Assembly: GCA_035547835.1 (NCBI GenBank)
Contig: DASZTW010000001.1
Location: 62,001-126,000, forward strand
From: Acidimicrobiales bacterium
Lineage (GTDB): Bacteria > Actinomycetota > Acidimicrobiia > Acidimicrobiales > Iamiaceae
DNA length: 64,000 nt
Direction: 5' to 3'
A program made the position numbers and the translations under genes. Positions 28,741 through 51,924 of this stretch are shown one piece after another. The notes below the pieces were generated by a model, which ran no database searches, was not told the DNA's origin, and saw nothing but the letters and a program-made list of their open reading frames with translations. Within the stretch, counting starts at the first letter, position 1, and each line of letters starts with the position of its first letter.

Positions 28741-28783
28741 CTGTGAGCACTTGACCACCGTGGAGGTGGCTACGTGCTCACAG
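28741..28783. repeat. 43-bp palindromic element, family 1
   Basis: CTGTGAGCACTTGACCACC, spacer GTGGA, GGTGGCTACGTGCTCACAG. It fills the gap between convergent DUF3097 and nurA and carries the nurA stop codon in its right arm. Confidence 0.9.
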
Positions 28784-29707
28784 CAGCGTGGTGGTGGCCG
28801 CGGCGACGCGCAGGGCGCGTTGCAACACGTTGGTGTCGCCGAGCCGCCGACGGAGCTCGCGCTCGAGGCCGGCGATCGGGTACAGGTTCTGCGGTGCGCG
28901 GGCGTCCTTGTGCGGGCGCGAAGCGAAGCGGGGCAACGCCACGCCCAACTGGTCGGCCAGCCGGATGACCTGATCGAGCGGGCGATCGGCCGGCACCTCG
29001 GCACGCACCACCGCCGCCCAGACGTGGGTCCGCTCACCGGGGAGGCACACGTACCACGACCAGCGCCGCGACTGCCCGTCGATCAAGAAGACGGGGGTGC
29101 GCTCCCCTGCGGCAAGCCGGCCGACCACCGGCTGGAGCGGCTCGGGCAAGTACGAGCGATGATGCGTCTTGACGTAGCCGACCGCTCCCGGCATCCGGTG
29201 GCGAGAACGCAACGGGCCGTCGACCACCAGCAGCTCACCCGGCGGCGCGCCGACGCTCACCTCGTGCTCGAGCTCGGCCATGGCTCCTTGCAGCGCCACG
29301 CTGAGGTGATCGGGCCCATCGGCCGCAACGGGTTGGTGCACGAACGTGCCGTGCGACGTGACCACCGGGCCGGCACCCTCCACCGGCGCGAACAGCGCCC
29401 GACGGACCATGGCCGACTCGATGGCGGCCCGCCCGTCGCACACGACCACCCCGGCCGCGTAGCTGGCGCAGATCCCTTGGCGGACGAGACCGTCCGCGCC
29501 CGTGATCCAGACCCGCGCCTCGATCCGGCGGACCCCGTCGACGAAGCGAACCGGGCCTTCGGGCGGACCGCCCGCGGCTGCGATGGGCGCCCAGCCCGCC
29601 GGGGCGACCTCGACGGCGAGGTCGACCGGCTCGCTCGCCGCCTCCGGCCCCGCCTCATCGACCGACGCGCCGTACTCCGGCGCCCACGTCTCGACCGCGA
29701 ACTTCAC
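28778..29707 (-). CDS. nurA: NurA domain nuclease
   Basis: 309 residues. Resembles NurA, the 5'-3' nuclease that works with HerA and Mre11-Rad50 in DNA end resection. Seen: VRFVDGVRRIEARV with Asp57 (the first metal Asp motif), LLVVDGPLRSRH with Asp163, then GAVGYVKTHHRSYLP (His/Lys) and a C-terminal helical part. GTG start at 29707 has GGAGGTGGAGG directly upstream. Third gene in line after sbcD and sbcC, 97 bp after sbcC. The last codons CTG CTG TGA come from the family 1 palindrome, as for bioD. Confidence 0.75.
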   Translation of the reverse strand: MKFAVETWAPEYGASVDEAGPEAASEPVDLAVEVAPAGWAPIAAAGGPPEGPVRFVDGVRRIEARVWITGADGLVRQGICASYAAGVVVCDGRAAIESAMVRRALFAPVEGAGPVVTSHGTFVHQPVAADGPDHLSVALQGAMAELEHEVSVGAPPGELLVVDGPLRSRHRMPGAVGYVKTHHRSYLPEPLQPVVGRLAAGERTPVFLIDGQSRRWSWYVCLPGERTHVWAAVVRAEVPADRPLDQVIRLADQLGVALPRFASRPHKDARAPQNLYPIAGLERELRRRLGDTNVLQRALRVAAATTTLL

Positions 29708-29804
29708 GCCTCCACCTCCGCCGTCGGTGCCACCGACCGGCGCGCCACACGACGTGCCCGCCGGCCCGTCCGCTGGCCCAGCCGACGGCTGACGCCAGGA
29801 CCGG

Positions 29805-32198
29805 TCAAACCACGACCTTCTCGACATGCGATCCCGCCGGGTCACGACGCACCTCGAATCGGACGGGCACCCGCTCGGCCAGTTCCGGTACGTGGCTGAC
29901 GAGGCCCACCATGCGGCCGCGCGAGCCAAGCTCCTCGATGGCGGCAGCCACCACATCGAGCGTGTCGGCGTCGAGCGTGCCGAAGCCCTCGTCGAGGAAG
30001 ATCGACTCGATCCGGGCGGCACCGTCGCTGGCCAGCGACCCCACCTGATCGGCCAGGGCGAGCGCCAGCGCCAGCGACGCCAGGAAGGTCTCACCGCCCG
30101 ACAACGTGCGGGCGGACCGATTTTCGTCGGCATTGCGATGGTCGACCACCACGAAGTTGGACTTGTCGTCGAGGGTGAGCGAGTACGCCCCGCCGGAAAG
30201 GGTGCGCAGCGTCTCCGTTGCACCGACCGTGAGCTCCGCCAGCGCCTCGTCGAGCACCCATTTCTCGAAGCCGCGGGCAGACAAGTGCTGACCGAGGGCC
30301 CGCGCGAGGTCGGCCGAACGCTCCGCCTCGTGGCACTGGGTCCGGAGATCCGCTGCCCGTCCGGCATCGCGCTGGAGCCGTTCGAGCCCGGCACGGCTGC
30401 GCTCGGTGCCGGCCGCCGCAACCCGCGCCGGATCCTCGCCGGTCGCGAGTTGCAGGCCGTGCTCAGCGAGTGCCGCGGCCGCCTCCGAGCGGATCGCCTG
30501 CGCCTGCCCTCGCGCGGCTTCCACGCGCGCGCTCGCTGCGTCGGCCGCGTCGCGGGCAACGGGGAGCCGCTCAGCCACCCACGCCTTCAGCGCCGACCAC
30601 GCGGCCGCCAAGTCGGCGCGATCGGCCGCCGGTGGACCCAAGGAAGCGACGGTGTCGCGGACGCGGTCGAAGGCGGCGAGGTCATCGCGCTGGGCGCCCT
30701 CCAGCTCCCGCACCCGTGCTTGCGCTTCGCTCTCCGCCCGGCGAGCGCGGCGCGCGTGCGCTTGCGTCGCCGCGACCGCCTCGTCGGCGGCGACGACCTC
30801 GTCGATCGCGGTGCGCAGCGCGGCGAGGTCGGGCCACGCCGCCACCAGTGGTTCGAGCCCGGCGACCCGGCTCAGCGCCTGCGTCAACTCGGTGTCGGCG
30901 CGCACGTGGTCGCGCTCGGCCTTGGAGTGGCGACGCCGAGCCTGGTCGCGTGCGGACGTCGCTTGCTCGGCCGCCTCGCGGGCCGCCGCGACGGGATCAC
31001 TCCCCGACGGCCCTGCGGACGGCAGGGCGGCCACTTCCTGCTCGCACACCGGGCAGGCCTCGCCCACCACCAAGTGGGCGGCGAGGTCGCGGGCACGATG
31101 GCGCCACTGCGCTGCCTCGAGCGCCGCGGCTGCGTCGACCATCGCGGCCTCGGCCTCCGCCAGCTCGCGGTCGGCGTTCGCGACGGCTGCTTCAGCGGAG
31201 GCCACGGCGGCCTCGGCAGTGTCGCGAGCTTCGCCCACCGCCGCCAGCTGCTCGTGGGCCTGGGCTGCCCGCTCGAGCTCGCTGCGGTCAGCCAGTACCG
31301 CGCGGGCCGCGGCTGCGGCATCGCTCGCCGCCACCGCGGCTTCATGTTCGGCACCGGCTTCGTCCAGCGCGGCGCGCGCCGCAAGCAAGTCGGCGGACCG
31401 CTCGGCTACCCCGGCCGGGACCTGCACCGACGCCAGCAGGTCGACGTGGTCGTTGGCGGCGCCAGCAGCCGCGACGGCGGTCTGGTGGTCGCTCGCCAGC
31501 TCGGTCAGCTGGGCCGCCCAGCCGTCGGCCTTGGCCGCCAGCGCCTCGCGCGCGGCGAGCTCGGCTTCGGCTGCGGCCACGGCTGCTGGGGTCGCGTCGG
31601 CCAGCGCCTCGAGCTGGCCCGACAGCTGGTCGAACGACCGGCGCGCCTCGGCTTCTCGTTGTCGGGCGACCGAGGCCATGCGCTCGTAGAGGCCGAGATC
31701 GAGGAGCTTGATCAGCAGGCCTTGGCGGTCGGCACCACTGTCGTGCAGGAACGAAGCGAACGCGCCTTGCGGGAGTACCACGCACTTGACGAAGTGCTCG
31801 TAGCCCAGCCCCAGCAGGTCGGTCACCGAGGCGGTGAGCTCATCGGCGGTGCCGGCGAGCACCTCGCCATCACTCGCCCGCACCAAGCGGGCCTCCTTGG
31901 TGGTTGCGCCGGCCCTCGTGCGCCGCACGACCCGCACGGCGGTGAACGACTCGGCGCCGACGGCGAAGTCGAGCCGCACCTTCGCCTCGCTGGCGCCGAG
32001 GGCGATGATCGGCGCGACGGCACGCCGATCGAGCCGCGGGATCGAGCCGTACAGCGCGAAGACCATGGCGTCGATGAGGCTCGACTTGCCGGAGCCGGTG
32101 GGTCCCACCAGCGCGAACAGCTCGACCCCGTCGAGGTCGACCACCGTGGGTCGCCGGAACACGGTGAAGCCCTCGACTTCGAGGCGGCTGGGGCGCAT
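29805..32198 (-). CDS. sbcC: Exonuclease SbcC / Rad50-like ATPase
   Basis: 797 residues, somewhat short for SbcC. N-terminal ABC half with Walker A GPTGSGKSS (32-40) and Q-loop VVLPQGAFASFL, then a long Ala/Glu-rich coiled coil broken at its apex by the zinc hook CPVC (C382, C385), a second coil, and the C-terminal half with signature TLSGGETFLASLALALALADQ (split) and Walker B ESIFLDEGFGTLD. Tethers and opens DNA ends with SbcD. ATG overlaps the sbcD stop by one base (TGATG). Confidence 0.95.
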   Translation of the reverse strand: MRPSRLEVEGFTVFRRPTVVDLDGVELFALVGPTGSGKSSLIDAMVFALYGSIPRLDRRAVAPIIALGASEAKVRLDFAVGAESFTAVRVVRRTRAGATTKEARLVRASDGEVLAGTADELTASVTDLLGLGYEHFVKCVVLPQGAFASFLHDSGADRQGLLIKLLDLGLYERMASVARQREAEARRSFDQLSGQLEALADATPAAVAAAEAELAAREALAAKADGWAAQLTELASDHQTAVAAAGAANDHVDLLASVQVPAGVAERSADLLAARAALDEAGAEHEAAVAASDAAAAARAVLADRSELERAAQAHEQLAAVGEARDTAEAAVASAEAAVANADRELAEAEAAMVDAAAALEAAQWRHRARDLAAHLVVGEACPVCEQEVAALPSAGPSGSDPVAAAREAAEQATSARDQARRRHSKAERDHVRADTELTQALSRVAGLEPLVAAWPDLAALRTAIDEVVAADEAVAATQAHARRARRAESEAQARVRELEGAQRDDLAAFDRVRDTVASLGPPAADRADLAAAWSALKAWVAERLPVARDAADAASARVEAARGQAQAIRSEAAAALAEHGLQLATGEDPARVAAAGTERSRAGLERLQRDAGRAADLRTQCHEAERSADLARALGQHLSARGFEKWVLDEALAELTVGATETLRTLSGGAYSLTLDDKSNFVVVDHRNADENRSARTLSGGETFLASLALALALADQVGSLASDGAARIESIFLDEGFGTLDADTLDVVAAAIEELGSRGRMVGLVSHVPELAERVPVRFEVRRDPAGSHVEKVVV

Positions 32199-33349
32199 CA
32201 GCCGGCGACTTCCTCGTGGACCTCGCGGAACAGCGCTTCGAGCGCGGGATCGACGACGTCGCGGCTCGCCAGGTAGTCGGTGAACAGCTCGCTGGGCGAC
32301 CGGCCCCGGCGTGACGGCGTGGGCGGCGCGGACCCCCGCTCGACTCCGGGCGGTTCGACGAGCACGTCGACGGCATGCGGAAACAGGTCGCGCACCTCAT
32401 CGGCGAGGCCTACCCGCGCCGCCGACCGCACGACGACCTTCAGGTAGTCGTCACCCGTGGTGCCGGCGAGCGCCTCCAACTCGGCGACGGTCCCGGCGAT
32501 GGTGCGAAGCCGGCGGCCGGTCTCGAGCTCCACCGCGCGGACCTTCACGGGCACGCCCGCCATCGCGTCGATCACGAGCACGCCCTTGCGGTCGTCGACC
32601 TCACCGAAATCGAGCTGGAGCGGCGACCCGCAGTAGCGGATCGGACACGGCCCCGGCACGACCTGGGAGCGGTGCAGGTGGCCGAGCGCGACGTACTGCG
32701 CGGTGGCGGGGAAGCCCAAGGCGCCGACTTCGTACTCGAACACGGTGTGGGCGGCCCGCTCCCCGCCTCCGAGCAGGCCGCCCTTCACCGTGAGGTGGGC
32801 GGCGACGAGGTTCACCGTGGTGGGCTCGAACGACTCGCACAACTTGCCGAGGATCGAGCGGACCCGGCTGTCGTAGCTGTGCTGGTGCTGATCGTGGTCG
32901 TTCTGCATCAACGCGTCGGCCGTGACGACGTGGCGCTGGGACAGGAACGGCAACACCGCGACCTTCGCCTGCTGCACGCCGTCGCGGGTGGTGATCTCGA
33001 TGACGCCTCCCTCATCGGCCGGAAGGAAGAACGGTCGGGTGACGACATGGCCGAGCTCGAGCAGCGGCTCGACCGCCTGCAAGCGGCGGGCGTTGTCGTG
33101 GTTGCCCGCGATGACCACCACGGTGGCGCCCGTGGCGGCGAGGGCCAAGAGCGCTCCGTACACGATGCGCTCCGACTCGGGGCTAGGCGTGGCCGTGTCG
33201 AACAAGTCGCCACACACCAACACGACATCTGCCCGCTCCGCCTCGGCGATCCCGACGATCTCGGCGAGCACCGCCCGGTGCTCGCCGGCCCGGCTCCTGC
33301 CCCGCAACAGGCGGCCGACGTGCCAGTCCGACGTGTGGATGATCTTCAC
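32198..33349 (-). CDS. sbcD: Exonuclease SbcD / Mre11-like nuclease
   Basis: 383 residues. Metallophosphoesterase motifs in order: IIHTSDWHVG, VCGDLFDT, AGNHDN, AAHLTV and GHLHRSQ, forming the two-Mn active site. The C-terminal capping region is followed by a helical SbcC-binding tail. GTG 33349 gives the canonical MKIIHTSDWH start and lies 7 nt after TACCAT, so the operon appears leaderless. The longer upstream frame has no family similarity. Confidence 0.95.
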   Translation of the reverse strand: MKIIHTSDWHVGRLLRGRSRAGEHRAVLAEIVGIAEAERADVVLVCGDLFDTATPSPESERIVYGALLALAATGATVVVIAGNHDNARRLQAVEPLLELGHVVTRPFFLPADEGGVIEITTRDGVQQAKVAVLPFLSQRHVVTADALMQNDHDQHQHSYDSRVRSILGKLCESFEPTTVNLVAAHLTVKGGLLGGGERAAHTVFEYEVGALGFPATAQYVALGHLHRSQVVPGPCPIRYCGSPLQLDFGEVDDRKGVLVIDAMAGVPVKVRAVELETGRRLRTIAGTVAELEALAGTTGDDYLKVVVRSAARVGLADEVRDLFPHAVDVLVEPPGVERGSAPPTPSRRGRSPSELFTDYLASRDVVDPALEALFREVHEEVAG

Positions 33350-33356
33350 TCCGGCG

Positions 33357-33362
33357 ATGGTA
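33357..33362 (-). promoter_or_regulatory. -10 hexamer, sbcD-sbcC-nurA operon
   Basis: TACCAT, seven bases, GTG. No SOS-box-like sequence was seen nearby. Confidence 0.45.
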
Positions 33363-33758
33363 TCGACGGGGTCCGACAACTTCGGGAATCCCTTGCACAG
33401 CAAGGCATTCCTCACCACCCCGATGGCCGTGTGGCAACGCCGTGGACGGTGGTCGGGACACGCAGGAGGCCGGTCGCCCCACCACTGGCGCGGGCGGGAG
33501 AGCGACGAACGGCCGCTGGTTGCGCGAACAACCACTTCTGGTCAGGTGTCACGTGATCTCATCCGACGCCAGAAAGCAAGTTACAGTTTCGTTGCTTTCG
33601 CATGACGCAACCGTCGCGGACCGACACACCACCCGGGCCACAGGCCCACCGGTCTGAGCGATCGCAACCGGCACAGAACTGACACGCCGGCCCGCCCGTC
33701 CCTTCTGGATCGCCCGATCCTGCGCGCGTGCCGTCGCGTCAGCGGAAGGAGCCCCCTG
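33363..33758. other. Divergent intergenic region without a gene
   Basis: About 400 bp between sbcD and the secreted lysozyme-like gene. It holds a locally AT-rich inverted repeat, GAAAGCAA (33572-33579), 12 bases, TTGCTTTC (33592-33599), and a shorter one GGTTG-N6-CAACC near 33517-33532. No riboswitch class recognised; in particular I do not see the conserved core of the c-di-AMP (ydaO) riboswitch that often precedes actinobacterial lysozyme genes. Confidence 0.4.
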
Positions 33759-34349
33759 ATGCACCGCTATAGACGCACCGCGACGCTGGCCGTCGCGGTC
33801 CTGGCGCTGATCGCCCTGGTCGGCGCCGCTTGGAACTTCCCTGCCGCGTCGGCCGAACACGAGGCCAACGTCGGCACCGCGGCGCTGGCCACGCCGACCG
33901 GCGCCCCGTACCTGGTCCGCACCGGACCCGATGGCGGCGACGTGCGGCTGGCCAACCTGGCCGCCGACCTCCACTACCACCAGGTTGCCGCGTTCTTGCT
34001 GGCGGCCAAGGCCAACGCCGACGCCCGGGCACGAGCCCAGGCAGCCCGGTCCCGCGCCAACCAGGCCCGGCACTCGTCGAACCGCATGGCCGGCACCTCG
34101 ACCGGTCACGCGTGCGGCGGCGACCTGCCCCCCTGCTGCGTGATGATCCGTGAATCGCACGGCAACCCCACGGCCGTGAACTCCAGCTCCGGCGCGTCCG
34201 GCAAGTGGCAGTTCATGCCCGGTACGTGGAACAACTACGGCGGCTACTCGAGCGCCGCCCAGGCCCCGGAGTCCGTCCAGGACGCACGGGCCCGCCAGGT
34301 CTACGCAGGTGGCGCTGGAGCCGGCAACTGGGCCGGCCCCGGCTGTTGA
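33759..34349 (+). CDS. Secreted Rpf-like / transglycosylase-like domain protein
   Basis: 196 residues. Sec signal peptide (about 1-32; RRTATLAVAVLALIALVGAAW, cleavage near ASA-EHE). A helical Ala/Arg-rich linker follows. The C-terminal lysozyme-like domain (from about 118) has MIRESHGNPTAVN with candidate catalytic Glu132 and SGKWQFMPGTWNNYGGY, as in resuscitation-promoting factors and actinobacterial transglycosylase-like proteins. Two cysteine pairs could form disulfides. ATG with AAGGAG about 7 nt upstream. Cleaves peptidoglycan; lies between, and opposite to, sbcD and herA. Confidence 0.85.
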   Translation: MHRYRRTATLAVAVLALIALVGAAWNFPAASAEHEANVGTAALATPTGAPYLVRTGPDGGDVRLANLAADLHYHQVAAFLLAAKANADARARAQAARSRANQARHSSNRMAGTSTGHACGGDLPPCCVMIRESHGNPTAVNSSSGASGKWQFMPGTWNNYGGYSSAAQAPESVQDARARQVYAGGAGAGNWAGPGC

Positions 34350-34396
34350 ACCCGCCCGCCGGCACCCTTCCGCGGCTGCCGGCGACCTCGCTGGGG

Positions 34397-34439
34397 GAGA
34401 GGGTCGTGGGCCACTGGCCTGCGGCCCTCTCGCCGTTTT
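34397..34439 (+). terminator. Intrinsic terminator of the Rpf-like gene
   Basis: GAGAGGG (34397-34403) pairs with CCCTCTC (34425-34431), with an inner GGCC-ACT-GGCC stem. It is followed by GCCG and TTTT, 47 nt after the stop. Also close to the herA 3' end on the other strand. Confidence 0.65.
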
Positions 34440-34491
34440 CGGGCCGCCTGAGAGGCCGGTCGACCGACCTCGCTCAGCGGGCGACCTCCGC

Positions 34492-36312
34492 TCAGCGAGG
34501 CAGGCCGGCGAAGGGATCGTCTGGCTGGTCGGAGGGATCGACCCTCGGGTTGTCCTGCGCACGTGCCTCCGCCGAGCGTGTCGCCCAGGCCGGGAACGGG
34601 AACTGCACCAGCAGGGGCACGGGCAGCTCGGGCTGCGACACGAGCATCGTGCCCGGTTTCAAGATGGTCGACCGTTGGCGCTGCACCTGCGGCAAGAAGC
34701 CGTACTCCCCGCGGCTGGACTCGGCCGCATCGAGCCGGCCGACGATGCGGATCGCCGAGTTCGCCACGATGCGCCGCTCGACCTCGCTGGCGGTCTGCTG
34801 GGCGCCGATCAAGATGATGCCGAGCGATCGGCCACGCTCGGCCACGTCGAGGAGGATCTCCTTGATCGGGCTCGACCCCTCACGGGGGGCGTACTTGTTG
34901 AGCTCGTCGAGCACCACGAACTGGAGCGGGCGGGCCTGGCCCGACTGCTCCTTGTCGCGGAAGGCCGCTCGGAGCACGACGCCGACCACGAACCGCTTGG
35001 CGCGGTCGTTGAGGTTGTGGAGGTCGACGACCGTGACCTGCTCCTCGAAGGAGATCCGATGGCGTTCGGGGTGCGGCACGCCCGACCGGACCAGATCGCG
35101 CACGTGCGGGACCGCGGCCCACAACCGGCGGATGAACGCGTTGACGGTGCCGGCACCGACTGCGCGGCCCGACCAACGCTGCGCCTCGATCGGGTCCTCG
35201 TCCTCCAACTTGTCGCAGATGTGCTCGACCAGGTCGTGGAACGTGCGGACGGTCGCCCCGTCGATCCGCACGGCGCCGTCGTCGCCCACCCGCTCGGCCT
35301 CGGTGAGGCGGAGCGTCACTTGGAACACCACCATCGTGTACTGCTGGCGCTCGTCCTCCGCGTCGGCGAACAGGAACGGCAACAGCTCCTGCTTGCAGAA
35401 CTCGTGGAGAGTCCAAAAGAACGACGTCACCCCATGGGTGCGGCTGGCGACGTCGGCCACCGCGTGGGCGTCGTCGCGCCGGGGCGGGGCCAGCACGCCG
35501 ACGCTCGGGAACGCCCCCGGGGCGAGGCCGAGGTGGCGGTAGCGCTCCGCCTCGGCTGGCGCGAGGGCGGCGTTGGGGTGGTCGAGGAACAACAGGTCCT
35601 CGCCCTTGACGTTGAAGATGAGTGCCTTGGTGTTGACGGCCTCGGGGCCCAGCACACCAGACGTGAACAAGCTGAACAGCAAGAAGGTGGCATACGTGGT
35701 CTTGGTGGCCACGCCAGAGATGCCGCTGATGTTGACGTGGGCGCCGCGGGTGCCATCGACGAACTCGAGGTTCAAGAAGAACGGCTCGTCGTCGCGGGAC
35801 AGGCCGGCCGGGAGGCGCCGTTCCATGCCGTCGAAGAACAACGCCTGGTCGCGCCCCGCGCCCGCAGCGCGACGCACCAGGTCGCCTGGCCGCGGCGGCA
35901 CGAACACCTCAGGCTCGAAACGGGTCGCCTGGATCAGGGCGGCCTCGCTGATCTCGGCGGGCAGGACGCCCTCGGCGATGAGGAAGACGTCGCTGTCGAA
36001 ACGGGCGCCCTCGTGGCGGGCACGGACCTGGGCGACCATGCCGTAGATCCGCACCGGATCGCGGCCGGGCAGCTCACGCTCGAGGGCGACCACGTCGTCG
36101 AGTTGGAGGAACTGGCCGGGTTCGACGGCGACCCAGAACTCGAGCGGGGTCGCGTCGTCGGTACCGATGACGCGACCGACCGCGTCGCCCAGCTCGTCGG
36201 GCGGGCCCGCGCCGGCGGGGTGGTACAAGTCGTCGCCCAGCTGTTGCGGCGGGCCCGCGCCGTTCAGCTGTTCCGGGTCGCTCCCCGCGTGGGTCCCCTC
36301 GGCCTCCGCCAT
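34492..36312 (-). CDS. herA: HerA-like DNA translocase ATPase (DUF87 type)
   Basis: 606 residues. N-terminal beta-barrel-like HAS region with PGDLV (about 40-150), then the RecA-like ATPase: P-loop region HVNISGISGVATKTT, Walker B LQFVVLDELNKYAP, sensor-type IILIGAQQTASEVERRI and arginine-finger region NSAIRIVGRLDAAE. These are HerA/FtsK-superfamily signatures. The P-loop reads GISGVATKTT, lacking the usual GSGKS. Partner NurA is encoded about 5 kb downstream on the same strand. ATG is 8 nt after TAGGGT. Confidence 0.8.
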   Translation of the reverse strand: MAEAEGTHAGSDPEQLNGAGPPQQLGDDLYHPAGAGPPDELGDAVGRVIGTDDATPLEFWVAVEPGQFLQLDDVVALERELPGRDPVRIYGMVAQVRARHEGARFDSDVFLIAEGVLPAEISEAALIQATRFEPEVFVPPRPGDLVRRAAGAGRDQALFFDGMERRLPAGLSRDDEPFFLNLEFVDGTRGAHVNISGISGVATKTTYATFLLFSLFTSGVLGPEAVNTKALIFNVKGEDLLFLDHPNAALAPAEAERYRHLGLAPGAFPSVGVLAPPRRDDAHAVADVASRTHGVTSFFWTLHEFCKQELLPFLFADAEDERQQYTMVVFQVTLRLTEAERVGDDGAVRIDGATVRTFHDLVEHICDKLEDEDPIEAQRWSGRAVGAGTVNAFIRRLWAAVPHVRDLVRSGVPHPERHRISFEEQVTVVDLHNLNDRAKRFVVGVVLRAAFRDKEQSGQARPLQFVVLDELNKYAPREGSSPIKEILLDVAERGRSLGIILIGAQQTASEVERRIVANSAIRIVGRLDAAESSRGEYGFLPQVQRQRSTILKPGTMLVSQPELPVPLLVQFPFPAWATRSAEARAQDNPRVDPSDQPDDPFAGLPR

Positions 36313-40063: not shown

Positions 40064-40873
40064 GTGCCCGAAGGCCACACCATCCACCGCCTCGCCGCCG
40101 AGATCGACCGTCGCTTCGGCCGCCGTCCCGTCGCGGTATCGAGCCCGCAGGGTCGATTCGCCGACGGCGCCGCCCTGCTCGACGGACGCAAGGTGGTCTC
40201 GGCCGAGGCGCACGGCAAGCACTTGTTCGTGCGGTTCACCGGCATGCAGTACCTGCACGTCCACCTCGGGCTGTACGGCAAGTTCGACCTCGGTCGGACG
40301 CCGGCGCCTGATCCGGTGGGCCAGGTCCGGCTCCGCATGGTGAACAAGACCTCGTGGGGGCACCTCCGAGGCGCGACCACCTGTGAGGTGCTCGACCCCG
40401 ACGGCAAGGCAGCGGTCATGGCGCGCCTCGGCGATGACCCCCTCGACCCCGGCGCGGACGGCGAGATCGCGTGGCGCAAGATCAGCCGCAGCACCACACC
40501 GATCGGCGCACGTCTGATGGACCAAGCGGTGACACCAGGCGTCGGCAACGTCTACCGGGCAGAAGTGCTGTTCCGCGCCGGGATCGACCCTCTGCGCGAG
40601 AGCCGTTCGCTGACCCGCGAGGAGTGGGACGCCATCTGGGCCGACCTCGTCGGACTGCTCCGCGAAGGCGTGCGCACCGGCCGGATCGACACGGTGCGGC
40701 CGGAGCACGAGCCTGAGGCGATGGGCCGGCCGCCCCGCGTCGACGACCACGGCGGCGAGGTCTACGTGTACCGGCGCCAGGGACAGCCGTGCCATGTGTG
40801 CGGTTCCGAGATCCGCACCCGCGAGCTGGCCGGACGCAACCTGTTCTGGTGCCCGACCTGCCAGCGCGCCTGA
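40064..40873 (+). CDS. DNA glycosylase of the Fpg/Nei family (Nei2-like)
   Basis: 269 residues. Begins (M)PEGHTIHRLA, with the N-terminal Pro and Glu that perform the glycosylase/lyase chemistry of endonuclease VIII. Contains SSPQGRFADGA as in mycobacterial Nei2, the H2TH region VGNVYRAEVLFRAGIDP, and a C-terminal zinc finger CHVCGSEI...CPTC. Removes oxidised pyrimidines in base excision repair. GTG start; no clear promoter hexamer in the short gap after mscR, so possible read-through from it. Confidence 0.88.
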   Translation: MPEGHTIHRLAAEIDRRFGRRPVAVSSPQGRFADGAALLDGRKVVSAEAHGKHLFVRFTGMQYLHVHLGLYGKFDLGRTPAPDPVGQVRLRMVNKTSWGHLRGATTCEVLDPDGKAAVMARLGDDPLDPGADGEIAWRKISRSTTPIGARLMDQAVTPGVGNVYRAEVLFRAGIDPLRESRSLTREEWDAIWADLVGLLREGVRTGRIDTVRPEHEPEAMGRPPRVDDHGGEVYVYRRQGQPCHVCGSEIRTRELAGRNLFWCPTCQRA

Positions 40874-51178: not shown

Positions 51179-51841
51179 TCATGCGCCGCCGCGGCCGTAG
51201 AAGCGCGGCGCCCGGTAGTTGGCCCCGACCTCGGGGCGACCTCGGCGCGACGTCCACCGCCACTGCAACGACACCCGGCTGCCGTACGCGCTCGCGGGCT
51301 GGTAGGCAACCGAGTGCTCCCAGCCGACTTGGCAGGTCCCGCCCATCACCAGCAGGTCACCCGAATCGGGCGCGAAGTCATGGGTGGCGCCTTTGGCCGG
51401 CAGGTCGTGGTCGTGACGGTTCGCCCGTGGTCGGAGCAGCCAAGGCCGACGGGCACCGAGGCTGAGCACGCAGATCAGGGTCTCGTCGAGCCAGCGCAGC
51501 TCCCGATCGCGGTGAAACGCCTGGCCGTCGCTTCCGTCGCGATACCGGATGAGGCTGCACCCGTCGAACCGCACGTGGTAGCGGTGCTGCAACCAGCGCT
51601 GTGCGTCGAGCAGGACGGGATGGGGCGGCGGCGAGCCGAGCTTCCAGAACGAGCCCACCCGCCGCTCCTGCACGTAATGGTCGTACCGGTAGACCTGGCT
51701 CCCCCGCCACGGGACCCTCTCGGCGAGGTGGTCGTGTAGCTCGTCGCCGTCGTCGATCCACCCGCGCACCACATCGACCCACGCGCCGGCACCCAGGTCG
51801 AGCCGCTCCACCTCCGGCTCGGCTGCCAGCGCGACCGTCAT
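51179..51841 (-). CDS. AlkB-like 2-oxoglutarate/Fe(II) dioxygenase
   Basis: 220 residues. Iron ligands His110 and Asp112 in FHRDRE, a distal His in GWEHSVAY, and RVSLQWRW with the 2-oxoglutarate arginines. SLGARRPWLLRP is the usual AlkB central strand. Bacterial homologues demethylate alkylated DNA or RNA; ALKBH2/3-type and tRNA-acting members cannot be separated by eye. ATG 51841 is 6 nt after TACGTT. Confidence 0.85.
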   Translation of the reverse strand: MTVALAAEPEVERLDLGAGAWVDVVRGWIDDGDELHDHLAERVPWRGSQVYRYDHYVQERRVGSFWKLGSPPPHPVLLDAQRWLQHRYHVRFDGCSLIRYRDGSDGQAFHRDRELRWLDETLICVLSLGARRPWLLRPRANRHDHDLPAKGATHDFAPDSGDLLVMGGTCQVGWEHSVAYQPASAYGSRVSLQWRWTSRRGRPEVGANYRAPRFYGRGGA

Positions 51842-51847
51842 CCCCCG

Positions 51848-51853
51848 AACGTA
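51848..51853 (-). promoter_or_regulatory. -10 hexamer, alkB-like gene
   Basis: TACGTT, six bases, ATG: leaderless layout. Confidence 0.5.
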
Positions 51854-51881
51854 CCGCCCCCTGCGCCCCAAACCCCTGGTG

Positions 51882-51924
51882 GTGTGAGCACCTGGCCACC
51901 CCACAGGTGGTCAAGTGCTCACAG
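51882..51924. repeat. 43-bp palindromic element, family 1
   Basis: GTGTGAGCACCTGGCCACC, spacer CCACA, GGTGGTCAAGTGCTCACAG. Lies 26 bp downstream of the NlpC/P60 gene stop (minus strand). Confidence 0.87.

Follow-up and report, generated by a model that had tools for sequence, protein, structure and literature searches.

Conservation of a bacterial herA-sbcD-sbcC-nurA gene unit, a probable DNA-end resection machine, in Actinomycetota and other phyla

The window analyzed here is a stretch of 64,000 nucleotides from an Acidimicrobiales bacterium of the family Iamiaceae (GenBank assembly GCA_035547835.1, contig DASZTW010000001.1, positions 62,001–126,000 of the forward strand). It carries four genes that read on the minus strand in the order herA, sbcD, sbcC, nurA and span window positions 28778–36312. 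The same four genes recur as a unit in relatives, and they probably form a single bacterial-type machine for DNA-end resection. The analysis itself establishes the gene set, the conservation of the unit, the co-occurrence of its members, the correlated divergence of the four proteins, the fold of NurA and the conservation of catalytic and motor residues. What is new is a conserved bacterial-type four-gene unit with its own SbcCD; a bacterial cluster of this kind has been seen once in print, in Oceanithermus (PMC5448004). The genes of the locus are as follows.

34492–36312, minus strand: herA, an FtsK/HerA-type ATPase with a HAS barrel and a RecA-like domain
33759–34349, plus strand: a lysozyme/Rpf-like transglycosylase gene (PF06737, E = 4.5e-11)
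32198–33349, minus strand: sbcD, an Mre11-type nuclease (TIGR00619, E = 1.4e-52)
29805–32198, minus strand: sbcC, a Rad50-type ATPase with a CPVC hook, 797 amino acids (aa)
28778–29707, minus strand: nurA, an RNase H-like nuclease of 309 aa, of the bacterial (Deinococcus/Thermotoga) type

The first-pass annotation of the window described sbcD, sbcC and nurA in a row, with herA about 1.1 kb upstream on the same strand and a single opposite-strand lysozyme gene between, and the coordinates bear this out. The sbcD stop and the sbcC start share one base (TGATG). The spacing from sbcC to nurA is 97 bp, and the GTG start of nurA is preceded by a GGAGGTGGAGG stretch. The sbcD start is most likely the GTG at position 33349, though the open frame extends to 33535. 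The start of herA is uncertain; the ATG at 36312 gives a chain of 606 aa and an alternative at 36228 gives 578 aa including the stop. The lysozyme/Rpf-like gene is a local insertion and no part of the machine. It was detected in the window alone among 61 loci, i.e. those of 60 fetched genomes and the window.

The 60 genomes supplied regions of 9–20 kb around nurA and comprise 57 of the 84 NurA-positive genomes of the class and three found in the family search alone. SbcC clusters with NurA in all 61 of these loci. Further named relatives were drawn from GTDB genomes (the best 80 of 549), and the close ones are mostly labelled Acidimicrobiia or Acidimicrobiales. After removal of duplicates there are 126 distinct loci, the window included, and 101 of them display the complete set of four genes on the same strand. 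The order is herA-sbcD-sbcC-nurA, termed order A, in 76 loci and nurA-herA-sbcD-sbcC, termed order B, in 25. Median gaps are 6 bp for herA-sbcD (n = 101), −4 for sbcD-sbcC (n = 115), −1 for sbcC-nurA (n = 98) and 11 for nurA-herA (n = 25). The neighborhood noticed in a single genome is thus found again in relatives, in which the genes are not scattered. The earlier observation is confirmed and is stronger than had been stated.

The 25 incomplete loci consist of 14 with sbcD-sbcC-nurA, eight with sbcC-nurA and three with nurA alone. Seventeen of them start 300 bp or less from the end of the available sequence, and at one further locus (L122) SbcC is missing from the 1.3 kb available upstream. 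Where the gap between herA and sbcD is wide, a conserved cargo in it was considered and rejected: the open reading frames in eight of the 12 wide-gap loci look unrelated by eye and vary by locus. The inserted open reading frames of wide-gap loci are common to close relatives, and those in the sbcC-nurA gap of locus L105 also look unrelated. The latter include two restriction-modification-like genes, judged by eye to be a DNA methyltransferase and an HsdR-N-like gene. At locus L108, herA itself is split into several overlapping frames in a contig of a metagenome-assembled genome (MAG) and makes up part of the gap; this is either a pseudogene or the result of sequencing errors.

The four proteins diverge in step. 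Their pairwise distances, with protein pairs lacking overlap assigned the largest distance, correlate over 93 loci with Spearman coefficients of 0.76–0.90, and for no gene pair did any of 500 permutations reach the observed value.

The names herA and nurA rested at first on recognition by the reader of the sequence because neither protein reaches a model cut-off; the profiles of their relatives settle both. The window NurA has no match to Pfam, NCBIfam and PADLOC models. The NurA domain model PF09376 is found neither in the window protein nor elsewhere in its own genome, while 49 of 61 relatives match it at E ≤ 1 (best 6.8e-7). A profile built from an alignment of the 61 NurA relatives matches Deinococcus NurA in the PDB (7f6d_H) with an E-value of 2.6e-50 and Thermotoga TM1739 (1zup) with 1.2e-23. 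An AlphaFold2 model, made from the window protein and 62 named relatives, has a predicted local distance difference test score (pLDDT) of 91.6 and a predicted template modeling score (pTM) of 0.89. The top Foldseek match of this model is Deinococcus NurA (7f6d_G, E = 3.5e-18). VIA-align places the model on Deinococcus NurA over 283 residues with a Z-score of 24.0 and a root mean square deviation of 2.8; further matches are 1zup (Z = 23.8), Sulfolobus 2ygk (Z = 14.3) and TdpB (Z = 12.5).

Mutation of D53, K201 or R309 abolishes the activity of Deinococcus NurA, and W8 is likewise important (PMC9960219). The first three correspond to D57, K180 and R270 of the window protein and are invariant in the alignment of relatives (61/61) and in a second alignment of the window with 62 of 79 NurA references (63/63). 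The window W8 lies outside the aligned stretch and is the counterpart of Deinococcus W8 by position only; it is also invariant. The basic motif 3 is partly retained, with H266 present in 59 of 61 sequences and a basic residue at position 267 in 39 of 61. The first-pass identification of the 309-residue protein as NurA therefore holds on three counts, its profile, its fold and its catalytic residues, and the protein is predicted to have Mn-dependent nuclease activity.

The window HerA falls below every Pfam and NCBIfam cut-off (HAS-barrel, 0.013), and the PADLOC HerA model gives 2e-9. The profile of an alignment of 37 of 53 HerA relatives matches Deinococcus HerA (7f6d_B) with an E-value of 1.9e-195 over profile positions 3–547 of 560. 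One archaeal match was recognized for this profile, Thermococcus 9x1l, at 0.088. The P-loop reads GxSGVATKT and agrees with that of Deinococcus, which has the unusual form GISGVATKT. Motor residues of Deinococcus HerA are K175/T176, D220, D487/E488, R495 and R552 (PMC9960219). When mapped by eye on the profile alignment, their counterparts are K176/T177, D211 and D441/E442 of the window protein, each present in 37/37 sequences, R449 (the DNA-pore arginine, R495 in Deinococcus) in 36/37 and R506 in 34/37 with three gaps. Of the acidic residues with which Deinococcus HerA binds NurA, D78 is kept in 37/37 sequences (D80 in the window). The window protein is related to known HerA ATPases along most of its sequence, and it is predicted to form a hexamer and to bind a NurA dimer.

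The Mre11 and Rad50 components are bacterial SbcD and SbcC by their model matches. SbcD scores 179 bits against TIGR00619 (cut-off 77.65) and 47 bits against the best archaeal Mre11 model. SbcC is above cut-off for Pfam AAA_23 and SbcC_Walker_B; it matches TIGR00618 with an E-value of 3.6e-77 at 260.3 bits, which is under the curated cut-off of 478.5, and the best Rad50 model gives 93.9. All 112 SbcC frames of at least 740 aa from operon loci display CxxC together with an S[GS]G[EQ] sequence that is like the ABC signature. Median SbcC lengths, with starts estimated and duplicates kept, are 798.5 aa in order A, 838 in order B and 1001 in stand-alone loci. Short SbcC arms fail as a hallmark of the operon, as three plasmid-borne operon SbcC are about 1000–1100 aa long. 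At locus L087 (genome G061) a single open frame of 1202 aa contains both the SbcD and the SbcC match and may represent a fusion of the two.

NurA is patchily distributed. In the family it is found in five of 24 genomes and in the class (E ≤ 1e-3) in 84 of 247 genomes, 67 of 175 good genomes and 55 of 124 genera, the window's own genome being included in both searches. HerA is present in 82 of the 247 class genomes (E ≤ 1e-30). Both are found in 79 genomes, NurA alone in five, HerA alone in three and neither in 160. SbcD exceeds its cut-off in 101 of the 247, of which 80 also have HerA or NurA and 21 do not. At stand-alone SbcD loci (19 of these 21 genomes and the second SbcD of genome G013), sbcC adjoins in 20/20 cases, and herA and nurA are absent within the 4.5–17 kb fetched.

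In the phylum the NurA profile (E ≤ 1e-5) matches 80 of 346 genomes; ten of the matches are weak, cover the C-terminal half only and all belong to one family (f64). SbcC or HerA is beside or near NurA in 29 of the 30 short loci listed. In the phylum of an Anaerolinea MAG, NurA matches 11 of 151 genomes and SbcC or HerA is beside NurA in 12 of the 12 loci listed. Three loci of this phylum (L233–L235) show distant NurA-like proteins, matching in the C-terminal half, beside a HerA. Among the named carriers are Smaragdicoccus niigatensis DSM 44881, which has a second SbcD gene above cut-off besides the operon, Pseudonocardia endophytica, and MAGs of Longimicrobiales, Dehalococcoidia and Anaerolinea. 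The complete set occurs in many records of Actinomycetota and in some of Chloroflexota, Gemmatimonadota and Cyanobacteriota.

Plasmids also carry these genes. Of 72,556 plasmid records six match HerA, one of which is an 11.85 Mb Nonomuraea record with order A. A 452 kb linear plasmid of Streptomyces sp. BB1-1-1 (L237) has order A beside TIGR02680, TIGR02678 and DUF2397 genes, which we take to be Wadjet genes, and an ImmA/IrrE peptidase gene. Order B is found on a conjugative Sphaerospermopsis plasmid and on a Chlorohelix plasmid (L242); in the latter an ImmA/IrrE gene is immediately upstream of the nurA-like gene. A Nostoc plasmid displays nurA-herA reaching the end of the record. Among 50,697 phage records there are two HerA matches, both distant; one is in a Marinitoga phage that carries a distant pair of NurA and HerA.

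In a tree of SbcC sequences (86 of 145 rows), order A (45 sequences), order B (22) and stand-alone SbcC (19) each form one group, with Shimodaira-Hasegawa approximate likelihood ratio test (SH-aLRT) supports of 99, 98 and 100. Genome G013 holds two SbcC, one grouping with order B and the other with stand-alone SbcC. The operon thus has an SbcC lineage of its own, apart from stand-alone SbcC. The HerA tree (93 rows) and the NurA tree (92, with locus L167 left out) likewise separate order A from order B, with supports of 100 and 100; both are midpoint-drawn, and long-branch warnings concern L056, and L156 with L170. When four SbcC copies from the plasmid collection are added, order A stays one group. 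Order B as a single group does not survive this addition and breaks into two places (supports 67–77, with L242 on a long branch). MAGs labelled Gemmatimonadota, Chloroflexota, Acidobacteria and Gammaproteobacteria fall inside order A, which suggests either transfer between phyla or mislabelled bins.

The gene content is that of an archaeal operon. In Sulfolobus islandicus herA, mre11, rad50 and nurA form one operon and each gene is essential (PMC4351679). The same four functions cluster in thermophilic archaea, i.e. Sulfolobus islandicus and Thermococcus, and the Sulfolobus order as listed in the available text is order A. The first-pass label of an archaeal-style neighborhood is therefore correct for gene content, and for gene order in most loci. 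It does not hold for the proteins, as SbcC and SbcD are of bacterial type, and for HerA and NurA the Deinococcus pair is a much better match than the archaeal proteins are. Descent from the archaeal operon is not supported by these comparisons, in which SbcC, SbcD and HerA appear far closer to bacterial models and structures and which include no rooted tree with archaeal copies. Order A is probably secondary in bacteria, because Thermus and the Marinitoga phage also carry nurA before herA.

Among bacterial systems the HerA-NurA of Deinococcus radiodurans (PDB 7F6D, 7WRW, 7WRX) is a direct relative, with catalytic and motor residues conserved in the window proteins. It differs in being a pair without sbcD-sbcC in the available text of PMC9960219, and its deposited NurA chain has 369 residues, against 309 here. 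In Oceanithermus profundus sbcD-sbcC lies downstream of hepA, a HerA, and the cluster has been likened to the archaeal repair cluster (PMC5448004). This hepA-sbcD-sbcC arrangement resembles order B; it is described as a recruitment of sbcDC in one genus, and the part of the text available does not state the position of nurA. The unit analyzed here differs in that the full set extends across several phyla and is mostly in the other order. No other report of a bacterial herA-sbcD-sbcC-type cluster besides Oceanithermus, or of any in Actinomycetota, was found in the literature searched. Stand-alone bacterial SbcCD consists of the same two adjacent proteins but belongs to a separate group of the SbcC tree. 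The phage defence systems SIR2-HerA, DUF4297-HerA and TdpAB likewise combine a HerA-type motor with a nuclease (PMC12977600). They differ from the present unit, in which the nuclease is NurA proper and SbcCD is part of the operon.

As a resection machine the unit would act in steps. SbcC-SbcD would bind a DNA end that is broken, blocked or folded into a hairpin and nick or trim it, as may be expected from SbcCD and Mre11-Rad50. There a HerA hexamer carrying a NurA dimer could enter. HerA, by ATP hydrolysis, would drive the duplex through its ring into NurA, and NurA would cut mainly the 5′ strand and so leave a 3′ tail for RecA. For Deinococcus HerA-NurA, both pumping and cutting of mainly the 5′ strand have been published from in vitro work. 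Physical contact between SbcCD and HerA-NurA, the order of action, the polarity and the use in chromosome repair are what we infer. A role in repair fits the mostly chromosomal copies, the housekeeping-like neighbors in the window, the co-inheritance with agreeing gene trees and the archaeal precedent. In Sulfolobus acidocaldarius, moreover, Mre11, Rad50 and HerA co-precipitate (PMC2288612).

A number of observations weigh against this reading. In the window, herA and sbcD are 1142 bp apart with the lysozyme/Rpf-like gene in the opposite direction between them, and simple co-transcription of the two is ruled out by that gene. The gap between herA and sbcD exceeds 1 kb in 12 of the 101 complete loci. 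Seven of the 25 incomplete loci have 5–6.4 kb upstream of sbcD without herA; in three of these (G053, G226 and G057) herA is farther upstream on the same contig. Two of the three NurA-binding acidic residues of Deinococcus HerA, E80 and D81, are not conserved. An interaction of NurA with Mre11, Rad50 or HerA was not found in S. acidocaldarius, according to the available part of PMC2288612. Loss of both herA and nurA makes Deinococcus roughly 10-fold more resistant to mitomycin and to high UV (PMC9960219).

Upstream of the operon, damage-response boxes also show no clear excess among the 95 of 101 complete loci that could be scanned (the others lacked upstream sequence). LexA boxes occur within 150 bp in 1/95 loci and 4/1900 random sequences, and within 300 bp in 2/95 and 8/1900; the figures for PafBC boxes are 1/95 and 7/1900, and 1/95 and 12/1900. 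A k-mer search of the same upstream regions finds words common to 6–13 of the 95 loci at most. The locus of Pseudonocardia endophytica (L167) is the only one of the 95 with a TTGTC[AG]GTG box, presumably a PafBC-type motif, upstream of herA.

The last point of this kind is that PF12705, the nuclease domain of the RecB, AddAB and AdnAB kind, is present in 244 of the 247 class genomes, with or without the operon. Complementarity of the operon with RecBCD, AddAB or AdnAB was considered and rejected on this domain count. Nothing indicates that the operon replaces the PF12705 nucleases, since they are present irrespective of it. The machine would then be an additional and not the sole route of resection, because these nucleases coexist with it in nearly all genomes.

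The leading alternative is a defence module, in which SbcCD would mark free, hairpin or palindromic ends of invading phage or plasmid DNA and HerA-NurA would digest both strands, in the manner of HerA-nuclease pairs. This is unlikely, but it has evidence of its own. The unit is found on plasmids, including the Streptomyces copy beside what we take to be Wadjet-type genes; its presence is patchy (84 of 247 class genomes); and the NurA fold is common to TdpB of TdpAB (Z = 12.5). TdpAB, a phosphorothioate defence, works with the Dnd modification genes, and the window's own genome has no match to DndC (TIGR03183, E ≤ 1e-3), which argues against a role of that type. A scan of 122 of the 135 called flanking genes, from 15 of 29 loci and without a background control, found few PADLOC matches (E ≤ 1e-20), with mad3, mad6, mad8 and PD-T4-6 among the matches listed. 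Against defence, HerA matches are rare on plasmid (6/72,556) and phage (2/50,697) records, and no NurA relative was found among 26 pattern hits in viral contigs. The neighbors in the window resemble housekeeping genes when judged by eye, divergence is correlated among the four proteins, and the gene trees share the split between orders A and B. On the side of defence, cutting by the HerA-NurA of Thermococcus was mostly of both strands, and a function against viruses has been proposed (PMC12977600). Repair and defence roles may overlap, as in RecBCD.

A second alternative is that the genes are linked by location only, HerA-NurA and SbcCD serving separate pathways (HerA-NurA, e.g., in chromosome or DNA transfer) and sharing an operon for dosage or co-transfer. 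In its favor, nurA-hepA of Thermus sits among metabolic genes without sbcCD (PMC5448004), the nurA and herA genes of Deinococcus were deleted jointly as a two-gene operon (PMC9960219), and 21 class genomes that lack HerA and NurA have stand-alone SbcCD. The SbcC of the operon nevertheless belongs to a lineage separate from the stand-alone one, even in G013 which has both, and in both gene orders all four stay together, overlapping or adjacent to one another. This alternative is therefore considered improbable. A chance neighborhood of unrelated repair genes in one genome, to which the unrelated gene in between and the lack of a Pfam or NCBIfam match over cut-off for two of the four genes might point, is refuted because the unit is retained at 101 of 126 distinct loci.

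Two further genes in the window are, by eye, DNA repair genes: a Fpg/Nei-like glycosylase gene at positions 40064–40873 on the plus strand and an AlkB-like dioxygenase gene at positions 51179–51904 on the minus strand.

A more inclusive account can be offered tentatively. Bacteria may own a dedicated, co-inherited and sometimes plasmid-borne end-resection machine of SbcCD and HerA-NurA, composed of bacterial proteins with an SbcCD lineage of its own. It could work beside AdnAB- and AddAB-type enzymes and reach ends that these cannot use, i.e. hairpin, protein-blocked, plasmid or phage ends. The gene order in Actinomycetota may have come to match the archaeal one by a single rearrangement that moved nurA from the front to the back, with no transfer of an archaeal operon.

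Bacterial HerA-NurA has been placed in Deinococcus-Thermus, where it likely arrived by transfer from archaea (PMC12977600, published in 2026). The present distribution extends HerA-NurA beyond that group, with NurA in about one fifth to one third of the genomes sampled (80 of 346 in the phylum and 84 of 247 in the class). Each of the four genes is essential in Sulfolobus islandicus (PMC4351679). In the cultured carriers Smaragdicoccus niigatensis and Pseudonocardia endophytica, gene removal could ask whether Mre11-Rad50 passes DNA ends to HerA-NurA.

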